64,000 nucleotides of DNA from assembly GCF_027943255.1 (NCBI RefSeq), contig NC_072893.1:115505784-115569783 (forward strand), given 5' to 3'. The translations under genes and the position numbers were made by a program. This stretch comes from Anastrepha obliqua. Taxonomy: Eukaryota; Arthropoda; Insecta; Diptera; Tephritidae. The notes below the pieces were generated by a model that was not told where the DNA came from, made no database searches, and worked only from the letters and a program-made list of their open reading frames with translations. Positions 24,881-53,700 of the stretch are shown piece after piece (the first letter of the stretch is position 1; every line of letters starts with the position of its first letter).

Positions 24881-25117
24881 CCGTCGGAAATAGTGGCGTT
24901 AATGCGGCTGTCCATGGACGATCGGCATCCGAGTATCTTTCTGATGGGCGTTCCTGAAGTTGTAATTTTCCTCTGTAATCAATAACACTTTTTTTTCGTT
25001 AGCAACATATGTCCCGAGAATACGAATCTAATTGTGATAAAATAATATAGAAAATTGCATGTTTGAACACAATATCATTTTTTCATACCATATTTTCTCA
25101 TCTATTTGGCTTTTTTA

Positions 25118-26402
25118 ATAATAATATGAATAAGTTCGTGCGGGTTTTTTCGAAATTTGAAACTTTATTGACGTAAAATGGTTACAAATTTAATATTCAA
25201 AGTATTGTCCATCGCTTACTACTACTTTTTCCCATCTTTCTGGCAATTCACGGATTCCCTTTGTGAAAAATTCGGTCGGTTTTGCCGCAATCCACGAATC
25301 GATCCATTTTTTGACTTCATCGTAATTACGGAAGTGCTGGTCAGCCAGGCCATGTTGCATCGATCGGAAGAGATAGTAATCGGATGGCGCAAGGTCTGGA
25401 CTATACGGCGGGTGGGGTAGGACATCCCATTTGAGCGTTTCTAAGTATGTTTTGACCACTTGTGCAACATGTGGCCGAGCATTATCATGTTGCAAAATAA
25501 CTTTGTCGTGTCTATCGGCGTATTGCGGCCGTTTTTCTCGCAGTGCTCGGCTCAAACGCATCAATTGTCGTCGGTAGACATCCCCCGTAATCGTTTCATT
25601 CGGTTTCAGTAGCTCATAATACACAACACCCAGCTTGTCCCACCAGATACACAGCATAACCTTCAGGCCATGAATATTCTGCGCCGACGTCGATGTTGAA
25701 GCATGGCCAGGGTATCCATACGTTGCCCGACGTTTTGGATTGTCGTAATGGACCCACTTTTCATCGCCAGTCACAATTCGATGCAAAAAACCCTTTCTTT
25801 TGTGCCGTTGAAGCAGTTGTTCGCATGCCATAAAACGGCGTTCAACGTCTCTTGGCTTCAATTCATACGGCACCCAATGGCCTACCTTTCGGATCATTCC
25901 CATGGCTTTTAAACGTTTGAAAATGGTTGATTGATCAACTCCCAAAGTTTTTGCAACCTCTTCTTGCGTTTGAGGCGGATCTTGATCGAGCAATTCCTCC
26001 AATTCGGTATCCATGAACTTTGGCGGCGCACCCTCGCGTTCTTCGTCTTCCAAGCCAAAATCACCACTTTTAAAGCGTGCAAACCACTTCTGGCACGTTC
26101 GCTCAGCTAGAGCATGCTCACCATAAACTTCCACCAAGATACGATGACTTTCGGCTGCTTTTTTCTTCATATTAAAATAATGAAGAAGAATTCCCCGCAA
26201 AAACACATTATTTGGCACGAAATTCGACATTTTCAAGTGTGGTAAAAATATTGTTGTTTACGCTTCAAATAAAAAACTTATACTGACGTTTGTGCCTTAC
26301 GACAGTAGCTCTCCAATGAATGTTTGGAAATGTGGATCGATGGAATAATAATCAAGTTACGCCATCTGTTGTAAAACCGCACGAACTTATTCATAGTCCT
26401 AT
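25118..26402 (-). mobile_element. Full-length mariner transposon, copy 1
   Basis: About 1285 bp. The right end reads (on the minus strand) ATAGGACTATGAATAAG then TTCGTGCGGTTTT; the left end matches over TATGAATAAGTTCGTGCGG with three changes in the outermost bases, which could weaken transposase binding. TIRs of about 28-30 bp with a ...TAAGTnnnTGCGG core resemble those of mellifera-type mariners (from memory). It contains one uninterrupted transposase gene. It is almost identical to copy 2 at 50230-51513, differing there by one deleted base and a few substitutions, so both moved recently. TA-rich sequence lies outside the ends as expected for TA target duplication, but the exact boundary is ambiguous. 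Confidence 0.9.
25190..26230 (-). CDS. Mariner transposase, intact ORF (346 aa)
   Basis: Catalyses cut-and-paste transposition of the surrounding mariner element at TA sites. I chose the ATG at 26230 (MSNFVPN...), giving 346 residues, the usual mariner length. Order: first helix-turn-helix about residues 5-55; second about 87-112; linker motif WVPYEL at 119-124 (canonical WVPHEL); catalytic Asp156 in IVTGDEKW, Asp249 in LQHDNARPH and Asp284 in YSPDLAPSDYYLF. Asp249 and Asp284 are separated by 34 residues, so this is the DD34D signature. All catalytic residues are present and there is no stop or frameshift. Compared with copy 2 it has F104 where copy 2 has Ser in the second helix-turn-helix, and P86 where copy 2 has Ala; F104 might affect DNA binding. 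Activity is inference. Confidence 0.93.
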   Translation of the reverse strand: MSNFVPNNVFLRGILLHYFNMKKKAAESHRILVEVYGEHALAERTCQKWFARFKSGDFGLEDEEREGAPPKFMDTELEELLDQDPPQTQEEVAKTLGVDQSTIFKRLKAMGMIRKVGHWVPYELKPRDVERRFMACEQLLQRHKRKGFLHRIVTGDEKWVHYDNPKRRATYGYPGHASTSTSAQNIHGLKVMLCIWWDKLGVVYYELLKPNETITGDVYRRQLMRLSRALREKRPQYADRHDKVILQHDNARPHVAQVVKTYLETLKWDVLPHPPYSPDLAPSDYYLFRSMQHGLADQHFRNYDEVKKWIDSWIAAKPTEFFTKGIRELPERWEKVVVSDGQYFEY

Positions 26403-35099: not shown

Positions 35100-36480
35100 A
35101 AAGAATTTATTTTTAATTTTCTGAAACACGCTTTTACAATTTAGAACACATTTTTTATTTAATTTTTTGAGCATTTTAATTATTTTATTTAATTTTTTAT
35201 ATAATTTATTTTATTAGATTTTTTTTTATGTCATTGTAATGGTTACTTAAATGCTGATTTGATTTAATTTATTTAACTAAATATTTAAATTTTCTTAAAT
35301 GTTTTCATATAATTATATTAATTTATTTTATTACTTTTTTGTTTTATATACATATATATTTATATATATATATATATTTTTTTTTTGTTATAACATTTCA
35401 TTTTATTTTTATTTTATATTTGATTATAATTTATTTTATTTATTTTATTCAATTAAATTTTTAATTTTTTTAAGATGCTTTCTATTTCAATTCAACCGGG
35501 CTATTTGGGTCATGTTCTTCGATTTCGATGTAACTCAAATCCCAAACCCAAAATCATTAAAATCGATTCTTTTTTGACTAAGTTATGAGCATTTAAAAAA
35601 AAAATTCGTATATAATTAAAAACAATTGATTTTGAGCCGAAAAACAAAATTGCCTATAAATCTTGAAAAAAATGTTTTTCTGGCGAACAAAAAAATACGT
35701 GTCTCATTATTTTGACCAGAGAGCAATATATTTGAGTTACATCGAAATCGAAGAACCTGACCCGAATAGCACGGTTGAATTGAAATGGAAAGCACCTTAA
35801 ATTTTGTATTTAATTACGTTACATTTTTTCATTATTTTTTTTTTATTTATTTATTTTTATTATATTTTATTTATTTCATTTTGGTATAAAATTTCACATT
35901 TTATTTTTTACTTTATTTATTCCAATTTATTTAATTTCAGTTTTTGCTCATTAAATAAATTTTTTTTTTAGTTTTTGTTATTTATTTATTTCTATTTTAT
36001 TTTGTTATATTTTATTTACTTACTTTTATATATATTTTTTTATTTAAATTACATTTGGTTTTATTTTTAATTTTTTAATTTAACTCAATTTATTTAATTT
36101 TCTTTTTTTTTTTTTAATTTTAGTTACTTCACTTTATTTACTTCTAGTTTTTGCTGATTTAATTTAGTTTATTTTAATTTGTTTGTTTTTTAAATTTTAT
36201 TCTACAATATTATATATTATCTATTTATTTCTTTACTTTTTATATTTTTTATTCTATTTAATTAATTTAATTTATTTATTTTTTTAATTTCTTCTGTAGT
36301 TTAGTCTATTTATATGATTTTAGTTAATTTTATTTTAATTTTTATTATTTTTAGTTTTGGTTTATTTTATTTTTCATTTTTATTTAATTTAATTTAGTTA
36401 ATTTTATTTTTGTTTTAATTAAACTTATTTTACTTTATTTACTTTTATTTTATTTTTCTCTTAATTTAGTTTAATTAATA
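35100..36480. repeat. Extremely AT-rich low-complexity sequence
   Basis: Almost continuous TTTATTTTATTTAATTT-type sequence with (TA)n at about 35355-35378. It is interrupted only by the inverted-repeat element at 35470-35800, whose arms are conspicuously GC-richer. Confidence 0.85.
35470..35800. mobile_element. TTAA-flanked foldback element
   Basis: TTAA at 35470-35473 and 35797-35800 bounds about 323 bp. The arms, roughly 35471-35540 and 35730-35799, are inverted copies with only about five mismatches over 70 bp; both contain TCGATTTCGATGTAACTC or its complement. The interior of about 190 bp is unique and AT-rich, without coding capacity. The TTAA duplication suggests mobilisation by a piggyBac-like transposase, though long inverted arms are unusual for that group. 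The alternative is a foldback or hairpin of another origin with TTAA by chance, which is easier in this AT-rich setting. Confidence 0.65.
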
Positions 36481-41682: not shown

Positions 41683-43485
41683 AATTCCTTTAGAACTAAT
41701 TCCGATTATTGGCGCTGATCACCTGTAAGGTAACCGCTGATACGCAGTTGGCATAGGCAATTTCACTTCCACCAGTACCTTAATTGAGTTCAAAAAAATC
41801 AAAAATATGTCCAGATTGACTTATTCGGTGTCCAAAAAACAATTCTTCATGGATTCTATGAATCTCAAATAAAAGTTAAACTTTCTATTATTTTTACCAG
41901 TATACAAGGATTTCTTATATTGTATCCTCATCCTCATGCTATATTTTTTCTTAGTTTATTAATAAAAATCTTAAGAAAATAACACTTTATTATATTTTTC
42001 ACTTGCTGGTAGTCCCTAGATATTACTTCAAAACATGTGAAAAAATACTCAACACTTTTTAATGTTTCATAATAGAATAAAAGTACATATGACACGTGAC
42101 AAAACTTAAAAAACAAATTATTTTTTTGGTAAAATAACCAGCAGCCTAATACACATACATATATTCATGCATTAAGCTGTATTTGTCTTCGCCATTGTGC
42201 ATTGTTTTCGCTATTGTTTGTTCGTGTTTAGTTTTTATTTGCTTTTGACTTCATTGCATAGCTTGACAAAGGTTGTGTTGGTTAGAGTGCAGCTCATATG
42301 CTGTTTATTCATCTCGCTTCCTTCATATGTATACTTTTACATAGATACATATGACTTTGACTTTTCCCTTTAAACCAATATTACATAGTTAGTTTTTTTT
42401 TAATCTCCTGGTAGCTATTTTGCTTGCTGCACTGTTTCTGCACATGTAAAGCGACCAGACAGCGCAATTGACTCACACCACATAACTGCTGTCCACAGCT
42501 GCAGTTTGCTACAGAGCGCCTGAAAGCCGACTATCATACTAATGTAATCTGCCGTCACTGAGTGCCTTGGCTGAGAGAACCTCTATCAGTTAGTCAATTC
42601 ATCAGTTGTATGAAGTAAAGAAAAACGTGTATTTGTCATTGTTGTTGCTACTGGATGACAAATGCAGGCTTTCTGTAGTAGCGCTTATCCTAGCGGATGG
42701 GTTAGCATTCATTCGCCGCATATGCTTCGTGAAAGAGGGTGAGGTGGCTTTGCTATTAAGGTTGAGTAAAGCCATGTAGGTATACATAATTTCATAGATA
42801 TGTCGCGCATGTGAATGATTTTTAAGAGCATCATTGGTTGGATGCATTGTTTTTTCATTTCATTAAAGAAATTTGTTTGCTTTTCTGCTTAACCTGAGCT
42901 GTACGGAACGAGTTGTATTTGTTTTTTATCTAGAAATTTTCTACTTTCTTAAAACAATTTTTTCCACGTTGCAATTTTTTTATTAAAAACTTTCACCAAG
43001 CTTTTTCCTTCTTGAAATCCTTCCTGTATAACCACCGCCTCTGTGAACTCAAGTTCCTCTCAAAGAAACTGTTTTAAGTATCGTACACTCTTAAGCTAAT
43101 TGTTTTGAAATTACCACAATTACGCTTTAAATATATGCAAATTTTTAAATTTTTAACAAAGTAAGTGCAAGCTAGTTTCAGCTGAGCTAATTTTGAATTA
43201 TTGCGTCTTTATTTTGTTCACTGAAGGTGGTGGTGGCCTATTGCTATATTTTCGCCGGTACGCACGCTGAGTTAAGATATTCGAAGAGTTATTTGCAAAA
43301 GAAAATTGCTCGAGGTCTCTGCTTTCTATGGGGGCTGTGTTCCACTGCATGTTTATAATTGTGATCCACAGACATTTCTTAAACGCTATAGAAGAGAAAA
43401 AGTCCAGCAGCAACTGTCAAAGTTTTTCGGAGTTTATCAAAGTTCTCATTTTTCAGACATAGATGGAACACTCTGCACTTGAAGG
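41683..43485. other. Gene-free DNA; two short frames of ordinary composition
   Basis: Mostly AT-rich. Minus-strand frames at 42602-42847 (81 codons) and 43198-43413 (71 codons) have more normal amino-acid composition than other frames in the window but no recognisable domain, and no splice context I can defend. Confidence 0.4.
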
Positions 43486-43580
43486 TTATGTTATGTTATG
43501 TTATGTTATGTTATGTTATGTTATGTTATGTTATGTTATGTTATGTTATGTTATGTTATGTTATGTTATGTTATGTTATG
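43486..43580 (+). repeat. Perfect (TTATG)19 microsatellite
   Basis: Nineteen uninterrupted TTATG units, 95 bp, no mismatch. Perfect long pentanucleotide tracts are usually young and length-variable. Confidence 0.98.
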
Positions 43581-45749
43581 TGATTCATATATGATTCATG
43601 AACTAAGGCCAACTTTTATTAACGGAGGAAACTTATTTGTACCTCTAATACCCATTAGAATCATATATTTGAATGCTATAATTTTTTATAAATGACAAGT
43701 ATTGTAATTGTATATACTGCACTCACCCATACTTAATGGCCCTCCCTTTCTATACTCGTATACGTCCATATATATTATTTCTTCTAACTCATTAAGTTTT
43801 AGCCCTCGTCAGTAATTCTGCACAAATCGCAGTAATCACATTTCAAATACACTTTCACTTTTCGCAAATAATGCAAATTTAATCACCGCTCAATTCATTC
43901 CGTCCAACTCGTACCCCTCCAGCTTTTGCACACTTGCAAATATATGGAAGTACGAGTAATAGACGAAAATTTTCCCACATTAATAATCATTTGGCGTGTT
44001 AAGTCTATAAATTCAATTAAATACGGCGGCAAATGCAATTTTAATTGAAACACAAACATGTGCGCCAACATCAGCCATAGGGCAAACACACACACAAATA
44101 CCAAATAACACAAATACAATGAGTTTGAGCGCCCCATACGTCGCATCAGCCAGTAAATCATAGCAGGAACCTTGACGCATCTCTCAACCAAACAGGCGGC
44201 ATACGAAAAATTGACATTGAAATCGGCGTAAATGCGTGCAAATACCATGTTGCTGTCACTTGCCGCCCACCAAACGCCTACCTATACACACAAACATAGA
44301 CAAACATAAACATACATAGGTATGTATAGGCATACATAAGCACACAGAGCCAAACATAGACATACATGCATGTTCGGCATGGCACAGCGGGCGTGTTGCA
44401 TGCAATTGACACAATTTTGTTGTGCCACCTCATCATCTCATATACGTACGTACATACACACACACATATTATAAGTACTCGAGTAATGGTGGCGTGCATG
44501 CCACAAAAGCCGCGCCACAACAAACCCGCAAATTGTATCAATGACCGCGAAATTTCGCAAACCCAGCAACAAAAACAAGCTGACAAGCAAACAAAAGCGC
44601 CAACCACCCACTGACCCAGCCACCAAAATGAGACAAGCAGCCAGTCGAAATCAATGCAGCCAAAAGGCAAAGTCCAGGCGTAACCGTAACAACACCACAA
44701 ACGTAAGCGCATCCAGACAACGCCGCGTTACGCATTTTATTTGGTGTGAATTGTAAGAGACAGAGAGTGGGAGAGACAGAGTTTGAGTTAGAATGCGAAT
44801 GTTGTTGGTGTTGATGTTGATATTGCGCCAAACCTGCAATTGATATGAAGTGGACAACAGGCAGCAGGCGTTAATAGCAGCAAAAGCAAATACAACAGTA
44901 ACAATCCGCCAACTGTTCGCATGTATGTTGCACGCTTGTATGTACATACACATATGAGGCATGCGTCGGAAGCAATGCGATTTTCACACCAGTCGCACAC
45001 ACTGGCGCAATAGCTCATCATCATAAGGCCCCTCGCCTACAAACAAGCATACATATGGCAGCCATCAACACCACAACCAGCAACATCTGCCTCTGTAGCA
45101 TTTGCAACAGTTTGTTGTCCATTGCCGCCAAAGTTAATGACAGCCACGGCGCGTTTTTGCATTTTAACTCACTGTCTGTTATCAGCGTGGCAGGGAGTTC
45201 AAGGGCGTGCATGTGTTGTTGGTGTTGTACGCAAATCGGCAGTCAGTCGAAATTCGCTGGCAAACAAACACAACAAGCAAACAAACAAATAAACCGCAAC
45301 AACTACAACAAATAACGGTTATATATAGTCTATGTAGTTATGTGATATAAATAGGTGGATTTTTTCTGCATATCAGTATGTATAGTATGTATGTATATGA
45401 GCTTATAAGGAGGATACACTTTAGTTACAAATATAAATATTTGTATAAATGTGAAATTATGAAAACGTGAAAAGGAGTAGATGAAGTCATATTAGTCTTT
45501 TCTGCTCATTATTGTTCTTGATAGCTTTAGTTTCATGTTGCAATTTGGTCTTTATACTTAATTTTAACTTACATTTTTGTCATGCATTCTGTACCAGAGG
45601 CCAGATTATAGCATAAGTAAATCAATTTTTTTCGGTCATTTTGCCAAAAACTCAACTCATCTACTTGTAGCTCAACAGCCAACCTCTGCGACTAGCTCTT
45701 AGCTTTTGCTACGCACTTGGTTTTTGCCTATGCAATAAGAGAAAAAAGA
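43581..45749. other. Gene-free DNA
   Basis: Slightly GC-richer between 44360 and 45300, with CATACATAGGTATG tracts (44300-44370). Minus-strand frames at 43895-44248 (117 codons) and 44278-44712 (144 codons) are Cys/Tyr/Val-rich without domain and read through the microsatellite tracts, so they are not called. Confidence 0.45.
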
Positions 45750-49900: not shown

Positions 49901-49910
49901 TAGGAAAATG

Positions 49911-50229
49911 GCGCCCGCCTTAGCTCAATGGGTTGGTGCGTCACTACCATTCGGAATTCACAGAGAGAACGTCGATTCGAATCTCGGTGAAACACCAAAA
50001 TTAAGAAAAACATTTTTCTAATAGCGGTCGCCCCTCGGCAGGCAATGGCAAACCTCCGAGTGTATTTCTGCCATGAAAAAGCTCCTCATAAAAATATCTG
50101 CCGTTCGGAGTCGGCTTCAAACTGTAGGTTCCTTCATTTGTGGAACAACATCAAGACGCACACCACAAATAGGAGGAGAAGCTCGGCCAAACACCCAGAA
50201 AGGGTGTACGCGCCAATTATACATATATA
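49911..50229 (+). repeat. tRNA-derived SINE, full head and body
   Basis: The head carries an A box (TAGCTCAATGGGTTGG, 49921-49936) and a B box (CGATTCGAATC, 49973-49983), i.e. an internal RNA polymerase III promoter derived from a tRNA. A junction follows (GAAACACCAAAATTAAG), then the tRNA-unrelated body: GGTCGCCCCTCGGCAGGCAA (about 50027), TGCCATGAAAAAGCTCCTCA, TTGTGGAACAACATCAAGAC, AAGCTCGGCCAAACACCC and CGCCAATTATACATATATA. Other copies: 45876, 56885, 60584 and 62993. There is no poly-A tail; the 3' end is TA-rich. Short reading frames over it are not real. Confidence 0.85.
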
Positions 50230-51513
50230 ATAGGGCTATGAATAAGTTCGTGCGGTTTTACAACAGATGGCGTAACTTGATTATTATTCCATCGATCCAC
50301 ATTTCCAAACATTCATTGGAGAGCTACTGTCGTAAGGCACAAACGTCAGTATAAGTTTTTTATTTGAAGCGTAAACAACAATATTTTTACCACACTTGAA
50401 AATGTCGAATTTCGTGCCAAATAATGTGTTTTTGCGGGGAATTCTTCTTCATTATTTTAATATGAAGAAAAAAGCAGCCGAAAGTCATCGTATCTTGGTG
50501 GAAGTTTATGGTGAGCATGCTCTAGCTGAGCGAACGTGCCAGAAGTGGTTTGCACGCTTTAAAAGTGGTGATTTTGGCTTGGAAGACGAAGAACGCGAGG
50601 GTGCGCCGCCAAAGTTCATGGATACCGAATTGGAGGAATTGCTCGATCAAGATCCGGCTCAAACGCAAGAAGAGGTTGCAAAAACTTTGGGAGTTGATCA
50701 ATCAACCATTTCCAAACGTTTAAAAGCCATGGGAATGATCCGAAAGGTAGGCCATTGGGTGCCGTATGAATTGAAGCCAAGAGACGTTGAACGCCGTTTT
50801 ATGGCATGCGAACAACTGCTTCAACGGCACAAAAGAAAGGGTTTTTTGCATCGAATTGTGACTGGCGATGAAAAGTGGGTCCATTACGACAATCCAAAAC
50901 GTCGGGCAACGTATGGATACCCTGGCCATGCTTCAACATCGACGTCGGCGCAGAATATTCATGGCCTGAAGGTTATGCTGTGTATCTGGTGGGACCAGCT
51001 GGGTGTTGTGTATTAGAGCTACTGAAACCGAATGAAACGATTACGGGGGATGTCTACCGACGACAATTGATGCGTTTGAGCCGAGCACTGCGAGAAAAAC
51101 GGCCGCAATACGCCGATAGACACGACAAAGTTATTTTGCAACATGACAATGCTCGGCCACATGTTGCACAAGTGGTCAAAACATACTTAGAAACGCTCAA
51201 ATGGGATGTCCTACCCCACCCGCCGTATAGTCCAGACCTTGCGCCATCCGATTACTATCTCTTCCGATCGATGCAACATGGCCTGGCTGACCAGCACTTC
51301 CGTAATTACGATGAAGTCAAAAAATGGATCGATTCGTGGATTGCGGCAAAACCGACCGAATTTTTCACAAAGGGAATCCGTGAATTGCCAGAAAGATGGG
51401 AAAAAGTAGTAGTAAGCGATGGACAATACTTTGAATATTAAATTTGTAACCATTTTACGTCAATAAAGTTTCAAATTTCGAAAAAAACCGCACGAACTTA
51501 TTCATAGTCCTAT
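50230..51513 (+). mobile_element. Mariner transposon, copy 2 (frameshifted)
   Basis: About 1284 bp. Both ends carry the TIR: ATAGGGCTATGAATAAG at the left and its complement (with A for G at one position) at 51497-51513, extending through TTCGTGCGGTTTT. Length is one base less than copy 1, which is explained by the single deletion in the transposase gene. Better preserved TIRs than copy 1. Flanked by TA repeats from the SINE tail. Confidence 0.92.
50402..51441 (+). pseudogene. Mariner transposase, killed by one-base deletion
   Basis: Same 346-codon gene as 25190-26230. Translation is intact from ATG 50402 through GVVY (codon 204); there, at about 51014-51016, a T missing from TATTATGAG creates an in-frame TAG. 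The remainder, from ELLKPNE through the second and third catalytic Asp motifs to GQYFEY, is intact in the shifted frame to the stop at 51441. Catalytic residues corresponding to Asp156, Asp249 and Asp284 are all still encoded. The residue at position 104 is Ser (Phe in copy 1), matching the expected helix-turn-helix pattern. Confidence 0.92.
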
Positions 51514-51523
51514 TATATATATA

Positions 51524-52441
51524 CAGGGTAGGCCATTTAAAGCGGGCCCATTTGTTTCTGAAAAAAAACATTGAAAAAAACATTTTTTTTGTGTTGATAT
51601 GAAAAATCATTTATTTTGATTCAAGGAGATTTGTTCCAGCTAGTTTTTGAAAATGATATCCTTCAAATGTTTGCCTCTGGCCTTGATGGCCAAATGTGTC
51701 CTTTTTTCGGCGTTTTCCATCGTTTTGGCCAATATTTCGGCCGGTATGGCGGCGATTTCGCGTCGGATATTGTTTTTAAGTTGAGTTAGAGTCCTTGGCT
51801 TGTTGATGTATACCTTGGATTTCAGATAACCCCACAAATAAAAGTCCGGTGGCGTCAAATCTGGTGATCTCGGTGGCCACGGAAAATCACCATTTTTCGA
51901 AATCAACCTTCCAGGCATAATCAAGCCGTTTCGGGTAATCAGCCGGGTTTAATTTTTGTGCCATTTGAATTTTGTACGGAAACATTTTCAAATCGATGCG
52001 AATTATGCGCCTGAGTGTTGTCCTGGCGATGCCTAATTCCTGAGAACGACGATAACTCGATGTTCGCGGAGCCTCCTCAACACTGGCTCGTACAGCCTCG
52101 ATATTTTCAGCAGAACGTCGTGTACGTTGTCTGGATGCGTGGCTGGTATTGCTGAGACTACCGTGGTTAATAAATTTTGCGTATAAACGCTGTAAAGTGC
52201 TTTTGGATGGCGCACTTTTAACTTTATTTTTTTTTTTAAACGCACGTTGAGTTTTCACAATTGAGAAGTTATTTTGGATGTAAAGCTGAATTATTTCAGC
52301 GCGTTCTTTTGGAGTGTACTGCTCCATGGTAAAAATTGTCTTGGACTGACGCTTCCAACGCGCTATGTCATTAGTCGATCTGACGTTCCTGTCAAAAGTT
52401 ATAGGGTTGCCCGATGGGCCCGCTTTAAATGGCCTACCCTG
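51524..52441 (-). mobile_element. 918-bp Tc1/mariner-type element with perfect TIRs
   Basis: Terminal inverted repeats of 28 bp are perfect, each starting CAGGGTAGGCCATTTAAAGC and continuing GGGCCCAT. TA flanks both ends (51522-51523 and 52442-52443). The inside carries a transposase whose catalytic middle is deleted, so the element is non-autonomous, yet perfect TIRs suggest recent mobilisation by an intact relative elsewhere. Inserted in the TA-rich tail of the SINE, 10 bp from the mariner. Confidence 0.92.
51640..52327 (-). pseudogene. Transposase with deleted catalytic core
   Basis: From ATG at 52327: MEQYTPKERAEIIQLYIQN begins an N-terminal DNA-binding region with TLQRLYAKFINHGSL, RRSAENIEAVRASVEEAPRT, then RRSQELGIARTTLRRI (second helix-turn-helix) and KLNPADYPKRLDYAWKV. 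Here about 150 residues expected in full-length relatives, including the first two catalytic Asp residues, are missing, and the frame shifts. The rest, LISKNGDFPWPPRSPDLTPP then DFYLWGYLKSKVYINKP to KHLKDIIFKN, holds the third acidic position and the C-terminus, ending at 51640. Same family as 4339-4639 and 17058-17479. The junction lies around 51900-51915. Confidence 0.85.
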
Positions 52442-52463
52442 TATATATATATGTAGGAAAATG

Positions 52464-52731
52464 TAGCGGCGGGCTAATCACCTACCCTGTCAGAAATCAA
52501 ACTAGATTAACGAAACCAACGCAAGACTGAGTCTTGGGGGGGCCCTATGCTCCCAAGAGGAGTGAACAAGAAAAGAAACTTAACATTTATAATTTTTGCA
52601 CACTCGTGAACTGAACAGCGGCAGCATCAAACAGACAAATAATGGAACGCGTAAAGGTCAACAGAAAGATTTCCAATGCTCAAATTACTTTTTTTTAGTT
52701 TAGTAAAATATTTATTTAATAGCAAAATTGG
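52464..52731. other. Former target locus of the SINE; unidentified repeat
   Basis: Joins in the pre-insertion state to 49880-49900. It includes a GC-richer block with GAGTCTTGGGGGGGCCCTA (about 52529-52547). From about 52595, TTTTTGCACACTCGTGAACT ... ATGGAACGCGTAAAGG aligns gaplessly, at modest identity, with 19482-19560, the interior of the inverted-repeat element. Together with GCGCAAAATTAATCAC at 49881 this suggests a second, larger copy of that family. Confidence 0.4.
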
Positions 52732-53337
52732 GTGATTGTACTCAGCATAAATGAGGATCCGTCCTTATCAGCACAAGACCGTATTCAGGCAGCTAACAGA
52801 GCCTACTTTGACCATATCAAACTTATGAAGTCTGCATTGATATCAAAGGAACAAAAGCTCCAGATGTACAAAACTATAAGACCGGTTCTTACCTATGGTT
52901 GTGAAACATGGGTTCTTAAAGTTATTAACGTGAATTTACTGAGGCAATTTGAAAGAAAAATTCTCAGAAAAATATTCGGCCCTATGCGATTAGAAGGCGG
53001 TACAGCCACGAGTATATAGTATAACGATGAGCTCAGTGTTTCAAACGCGGGTCAAAATGGAAGGCAGTTTTTAAAGCCGCAGAGATTACGCTGGTACGGA
53101 CGCTTCCTAAGAATGAGCAGCGAAAGAGCGATCAAAAAAGTGTTTGAAGCAAATCCTATAGGAGCAAGAAGCAGACGCCGCCCAAGGCGACGATAGCTAC
53201 AAGACGTAGAAAACGATAGGCGAAAGATGAGAATCTCAAAATATAGAACGAAAGCGGTCTGTTGAAAAGAATGGAGGCGTATTATAGAGGAGTCAAAGAT
53301 CCACGCCGGACTGTAATGCCAATGTGATGATGATAGA
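52732..53337 (+). pseudogene. RTE-like LINE, 3' part of reverse transcriptase
   Basis: Frame reads RIQAANRAYFDHIKLMKSAL, then SKEQKLQMYKTIRPVLTYGC, ETWVLKV and LLRQFERKILRKIFGP, the thumb-like region after the RTE reverse transcriptase catalytic core. A stop follows near 53017, but coding similarity continues: KPQRLRWYGRFLRMSSERAI, KKVFEANPIGARSRRRPRRR, a stop, and WRRIIEESKIHAGL near 53267-53313. The tail ends in TGATGATGATAGAATACC, the kind of short-repeat 3' end typical of RTE elements. 5'-truncated and stop-containing. Endonuclease and catalytic motifs are absent. Confidence 0.8.
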
Positions 53338-53365
53338 ATACCTTTGTAATTTATAAAAATCATGA

Positions 53366-53700
53366 GCATCACTTGGTTTTTTGACTGAAAATGTCGTGAT
53401 TTTTTTGGTATTGGTTCATTCGGCGCTTACCTGATGTCTGGATTGCGTGTCGTACTCTTAAAACCACATCTCGTTTCCAGTAATGATGTCTTTAGCGATA
53501 TAAATACGGACTCAATTTTGCATGAACTTCAGTTCATTTGGGACCAACTTTGAAGGAACACAGCACAATTCCAAATCATTAACTACAAAATGTCCTGCAT
53601 GCATCCATAAGCAATTTTCAAGTTCTCTACCAGCTCGCTGATGTTTAACGGAGAGTTTAACTACATAACCCTTTACCTTATTCTATTGTCATTCTAAATC
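53366..53700 (-). pseudogene. Mariner-like transposase remnant (middle)
   Basis: Minus-strand frames give YGCMQDILVNDLELC, VPSKLVPNELKFMQN, then KDIITGNEMWF, QTSGKRRMNQYQKN and FSQKTK. The order (second helix-turn-helix, LVP.EL.F.Q, IITGDETW, QTS..S.W, P.PKK) is that of a mariner-related transposase around its first catalytic Asp, which here is Asn. Several stops and frame changes are present. Adjacent to the LINE fragment at 52732, so two elements abut here. Confidence 0.6.

Follow-up and report, generated by a model that had tools for sequence, protein, structure and literature searches.

The window, the whole stretch of 64,000 bases analysed here, contains a nest of three mobile elements at positions 49901-52463 (Table 1). 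The nest is bounded by two copies of TAGGAAAATG, which occur nowhere else in the window on either strand. The left copy abuts the start of a SINE, and the right copy abuts the end of that SINE's residual tail. The pair encloses the SINE, a mariner of 1284 bp and a DD41D-type element of 918 bp with an internal deletion, hereafter called element 2. A TA dinucleotide flanks the mariner and element 2 on each side, and both sit inside the split TA tail of the SINE. Of that tail, 10 nt remain before the mariner, TATATATATA separates the mariner from element 2, and TATATATATATG precedes the second duplication. The preliminary description had claimed that the TAGGAAAATG pair encloses a SINE, a mariner and a second Tc1/mariner-type element, and that both DNA transposons landed in the SINE's TA-rich 3' tail. 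The uniqueness of the pair confirms the former, and the flanking TAs and the division of the tail into three pieces bear out the latter.

Table 1. Coordinates of the nested elements and of the second mariner copy in the window
Feature	Position	Strand	Remark
Left copy, SINE target-site duplication (TSD) TAGGAAAATG	49901..49910	+	Exact, one of only two in window
SINE body, 3' end CGCCAATTA	49911..50219	+	A/B-box-like motifs in head, by eye
SINE TA-rich tail, piece 1	50220..50229	+	Its TA at 50228-50229 serves as left TSD of the mariner
Mariner (DD34D type), 1284 bp (copy A)	50230..51513	+	Transposase frame broken, one base missing near 51015
Mariner transposase gene, frameshifted	50402..51441	+	Pieces match HTH_48 and Transposase_1 (Pfam)
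Tail piece 2, TATATATATA	51514..51523	+	Contains right mariner TSD and left TSD of element 2
Element 2, 918-bp non-autonomous DD41D/rosa-type	51524..52441	-	Perfect 28-bp inverted ends
Element 2 N-terminal transposase piece (DUF4817 HTH)	51890..52327	-	PF16087, E=2.9e-12
Element 2 C-terminal transposase piece	51640..51924	-	Stretch with first two catalytic D deleted
Tail piece 3, TATATATATATG	52442..52453	+	Starts with right TSD of element 2
Right copy, SINE target-site duplication TAGGAAAATG	52454..52463	+	Exact match
Second mariner copy (copy B), ends approximate	25116..26402	-	Intact 346-aa frame; outside SINE tails

The right flank of the nest (52464-53400) resembles a broken non-LTR retrotransposon; the reverse-transcriptase-like frame there (52732-53019) had no Pfam match. 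Elsewhere in the window are a perfect GTTAT repeat of 19 copies (43485-43581) and a 333-bp inverted-repeat element (35469-35801) with 72-bp arms that are 93% complementary, possibly flanked by TTAA.

A relation of the SINE to tRNA is suggested by the A- and B-box-like motifs read by eye in its head. ARAGORN and Rfam matched no tRNA there, and at their thresholds neither detected any tRNA or RNA family anywhere in the 64,000-base window; when the SINE was searched against Rfam at relaxed settings, the one match was at chance level. The window spans 115505784-115569783 of contig C2 in the host genome (836 Mb, 204 contigs). Searching that genome, with 40 of 4036 first-look candidates scored, yielded 39 copies besides that of the window, at 93-96% identity. 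Their tails, all 39 of which were read, are mostly (TA)n, and the family shows both the variable-length target duplication and the 3' simple-repeat tail of tRNA-derived SINEs. Exact SINE patterns had no occurrence in viral contig or genome contig collections. Within the SINE, ~100 bases from its start, five T in a row (50013-50017) might serve to terminate Pol III transcription, and runs of T stand at the same place in SINE copies near 60.6 and 63.0 kb of the window. Two sampled copies 3.7 kb apart (L002 and L003) share the same flanks and probably represent a tandem segmental duplication.

One guest in the tail is a Mos1-like mariner of the Tc1/mariner superfamily (DD34D). The inverted ends of copy A are 30 bp long and differ at one position; over its length this copy is 99.2% identical to copy B (~25.1-26.4 kb), whose intact frame matches Mos1 over its whole length (PDB 3hos, residues 1-345, 451 bits) and places 34 residues between the second and third D by eye count. 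The TA duplication, inverted ends of ~28-30 bp, length of ~1.3 kb (~1.28 kb here) and Mos1-type transposase are those of a DD34D mariner; unlike Mos1, the window's copy A is frameshifted. TA immediately precedes 55 of 60 other mariner ends. The mariner protein had no confirmed relative in genome contig or viral contig collections.

Element 2, whose 28-bp inverted ends match without mismatch, is an internally deleted member of another family. Alignment with its relatives shows that the stretch bearing the first two catalytic D is missing, and its C-terminal transposase piece has no Pfam match of its own. In one relative (P0121, 361 aa), 41 residues separate the second from the third D by eye count, and the corresponding stretch is deleted in the window copy. 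The host genome contains 544 element 2 ends, the first 100 of which, on one contig (C1), resolve into 49 pairs and 2 single ends. Since 40 of these 49 pairs are spaced at 896-940 bp, and the other 9 at 1284-1318 bp, the 918-bp window element fits an amplified deletion class. Two relatives from other sources (P0129 and P0136) also carry internal deletions ending near the same places as the window's. Three aphid rosa elements are reported, in an excerpt of the source, as DD41D with 361-362 aa and 27-32-bp inverted ends (PMC5490172). P0121 shares with rosa the D spacing of 41 and the length of 361 aa, and element 2 shares the TA duplication and short inverted ends; unlike rosa, element 2 lacks the part carrying the first two D, and rosa is a candidate placement for it among the DD41D groups.

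The layers of the nest differ in age. Divergence from the family majority is 10 of 307 bases (3.3%) for the window's SINE and 1 of 1285 for mariner A. The medians are 3.26% for SINE segments (n=63) and 0.31% for 19 mariner copies (range 0.08-0.73%), with minimum lengths of 180 bp for the former and 1000 bp for the latter and without two loci that repeat the window (L001 and L051). SINE bodies in other nests lie 2.7-14% from the majority (12 of 16 nests were long enough to measure). Because its duplication encloses everything else, and because it is the more diverged, the SINE came first; the far lower divergence of the mariner makes the mariner much younger. The insertion order, which had been called readable, is thus readable for the SINE before the DNA transposons but not between the mariner and element 2, since each lies in tail sequence.

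The arrangement recurs at other SINE copies. In the host genome, CGCCAATTA is followed by a mariner end within 30 nt at 17 places, against 0 for a reversed-pattern control. A SINE match was found by blastn at 16 of the 17 and none at the other (L048). Both mariner orientations occur among these nests, and element 2 follows the mariner, within the 90 nt looked at, only in the window. At three nests (L044, L045 and L055) the sequence that borders the SINE on the left recurs, over 14, 11 and 13 nt respectively, past the distal mariner end and what is left of the TA tail, and these enclosing direct repeats show the TAGGAAAATG duplication to be genuine in kind.

Tail insertions exceed what TA density predicts, the check that the preliminary description had proposed. 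Because the total of CGCCAATTA sites is only a sample estimate (6 further sites in 200 kb), the formal test used a longer anchor, CGCCAATTATA, with 13,546 sites (reversed control 286). This anchor is present at 12 of the 17 mariner-in-tail places, dropping 5 of 17 mariner cases and 1 of 3 element 2 cases. The expectation was half of the ends, since an inserted element turns just one of them towards the SINE, multiplied by the share of genomic TAs in 33 nt of SINE tails; its inputs, 9.0-10.3 TA per tail and 0.0765-0.0836 TA per base, come from samples, and all P values for this test treat these estimates as exact. With 2205 mariner ends in the genome (control 0), 12 mariners were seen in CGCCAATTATA tails against about 2.2 (1.9-2.4) expected, a 5.0-6.2-fold excess (P 9e-7 to 9e-6), and removing the window leaves 11 against 2.2 (5.1-fold, P=1.7e-5). 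Element 2 occurs in SINE tails 3 times among its 544 ends; with the longer anchor this becomes 2 against 0.53 expected, which is not significant alone (P=0.10). Mariner and element 2 together, without the window, give 13 against 2.7 (4.8-fold, 95% interval 2.6-8.2, P=5e-6).

A sample chosen without regard to tails points the same way. Among the 39 SINE copies, picked blind to the tail, 3 carry other TA-flanked inverted-repeat elements there (~465 bp in L006, ~610 bp in L027 and ~360 bp in L034), and one more is ambiguous. Counting the shared tails of L002 and L003 once leaves 38 independent copies. The background comprised 12 TA-flanked elements, or 14 with two fold-back elements whose target is unclear, among 20,649 TAs in 264 kb; these were chosen by eye because a de novo scan for flanked inverted repeats was noisy, returning 99 for TA and 50-89 for nine other dinucleotides tried. 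The 38 tails should then hold 0.21-0.25 insertions, compared with the 3 seen (P 0.0014-0.0022), and a pessimistic background of 30 elements raises the expectation to 0.54 (P=0.017). The suggestion that each SINE copy may become an insertion hot spot therefore stands insofar as tails are hit above TA expectation, but not as a strong hot spot at each copy, since most of the 39 tails hold no insert.

Two further candidate tail insertions were not counted. At L011, the 6 bases TAGATA that precede the element also precede the SINE, so the element may already have been there when the SINE inserted next to it. The case at L019 is an old mariner remnant and was rejected. The sampled loci also contain other associations of these elements. 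A SINE copy lies within a TA-flanked element in a converse nest (L013, 3977-5240), and the ends of that element, CAGGGTGGGCC, have a tip similar to element 2. A fold-back element with inverted arms of ~190 bp occurs twice (L009, 4466-5747; L023, 7888-8826), with a SINE inside it in L009. Four elements of 727-773 bp have AGGGG ends adjoining TTAA (L013 at 6500, L020 at 8076, L023 at 1283 and 3286) and appear piggyBac-like in their target site.

Tc1/mariner elements join their ends to TA. We read 60 mariner ends in genome order, from 0 to 42 Mb of C1, one per element, skipping only the element of a known tail case (L041). Their flanks hold 3.8 TA per 30 nt compared with 3.47 at any TA, and TATA stands at 6 of 60 against a background of 10%. 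From the side that was read, a single one of these ends falls within a SINE tail; another 1 or 2 touch SINE bodies (L084, and L089 weakly). Because TA richness at these sites is barely above background, the mariner family is not simply seeking TA-rich DNA, and the excess in tails has to be put down either to the strictly alternating pattern of (TA)n or to something else.

SINE tails are a real, several-fold hot spot relative to their TA count, and in the window the SINE came first and the two DNA transposons followed in its tail. The account that we consider likely is that a putatively tRNA-like SINE retroposed, creating a 10-bp duplication and a (TA)n tail, and that the mariner and the non-autonomous DD41D-type element later integrated, each at a TA within that tail, leaving it in three pieces. 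By spreading, the SINE family supplies thousands of TA-rich tails, in which the two TA-targeting families together occur at ~5x the expectation from TA content. Flexible, palindromic alternating TA may be favoured at strand transfer, and a (TA)n tail would offer many overlapping sites. In a structure of Mos1 with its target, the target is bent ~147 degrees and adenines are flipped, a bend that its authors consider, in the excerpt available, consistent with a bias of mariner/Tc1 elements to bendable, palindromic AT-rich sites (PMC5481204). Against a role of bendability, an excerpt of another study reports no correlation for Mos1 or Hsmar1 targets, the Hsmar1 comparison having little power (PMC3544897).

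The closest alternative, towards which we lean somewhat, is that all (TA)n runs serve equally well as targets and the SINE matters only as a spreader of such runs. It gains weight from pineapple MITEs, described in part of the source as aimed at (TA)n, with cluster intervals of almost pure (TA)n (PMC8449440), and from the consensus sites reported in an excerpt for Mos1 (TATA) and Sleeping Beauty (ATATATAT) (PMC3544897); the 10 runs of (TA) with at least five units outside SINE tails in our sample are too few for a comparison. This alternative is a refinement of the hot-spot reading more than an opposition to it. An explanation that dispenses with target preference places the tails in dispensable DNA or in mariner compartments, where insertions survive or co-occur more. 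The 60 flanks, which were not selected for context, do show little general TA-context preference; against this, the young mariner copies have had little time for selection, and a five-fold excess would seem to require the loss of most other insertions, which makes this explanation unlikely. We infer that the excess probably stems from target choice, rather than from insertions surviving better in tails or from tails and mariners occupying the same compartments.

Thousands of SINEs and more than 1000 mariner copies must produce some nests by chance, and the nest in the window was selected for being one, so that two hits in one tail might be coincidence without any hot spot; the excess that persists without the window and the 3 of 39 blind copies make that very improbable. 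Least credible of all is a single event, the retroposition of a SINE transcript already carrying both DNA transposons. The duplication does surround all three elements, as this would have it, but both DNA transposons have their own inverted ends, TA on both sides and pieces of tail on either side, and the SINE greatly predates the mariner; moreover, mariner orientation varies among the other nests, none of which has element 2 in the 90 nt beyond the mariner.

Transposon targeting of (TA)n is already known in plants (PMC8449440, in excerpt). The pineapple Ac-mMITE elements described there share with the nest a preference for alternating TA and neighbours separated by almost pure (TA)n, and Micron and MuTAnT are cited in the same excerpt as (TA)n-targeting MITEs; unlike these Mutator-like pineapple MITEs, the nested elements are Tc1/mariner and the targets are SINE tails. 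AT-rich targets are reported for Bari in part of another source (PMC4877112). A SINE-mariner joint is described, again in excerpt, for HaSE2 of Helicoverpa armigera, which matches a mariner at 98% identity over its 154-bp 3' region (PMC3272025); in HaSE2 the joint is itself a SINE family, whereas in the nest the mariner entered a tail that already existed. A literature search of partial coverage found, among the papers listed, no title or abstract that describes SINE tails as Tc1/mariner hot spots.

With these observations a single curious locus becomes an interaction that can be measured, in which two classes of mobile DNA meet and one parasite lays targets for another. Thousands of tails form a natural experiment, and because the layers are dated, both target choice and what becomes of nested elements can be put to the test. 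A bolder and rather doubtful extension is that the SINE family builds a habitat for DNA transposons, its tails being preferred even to (TA)n runs elsewhere, and that the resulting composites can feed new chimeric SINEs. If so, each retroposition would add a harmless (TA)n landing pad, and bursts of SINE activity would raise the carrying capacity of the genome for Tc1/mariner elements.
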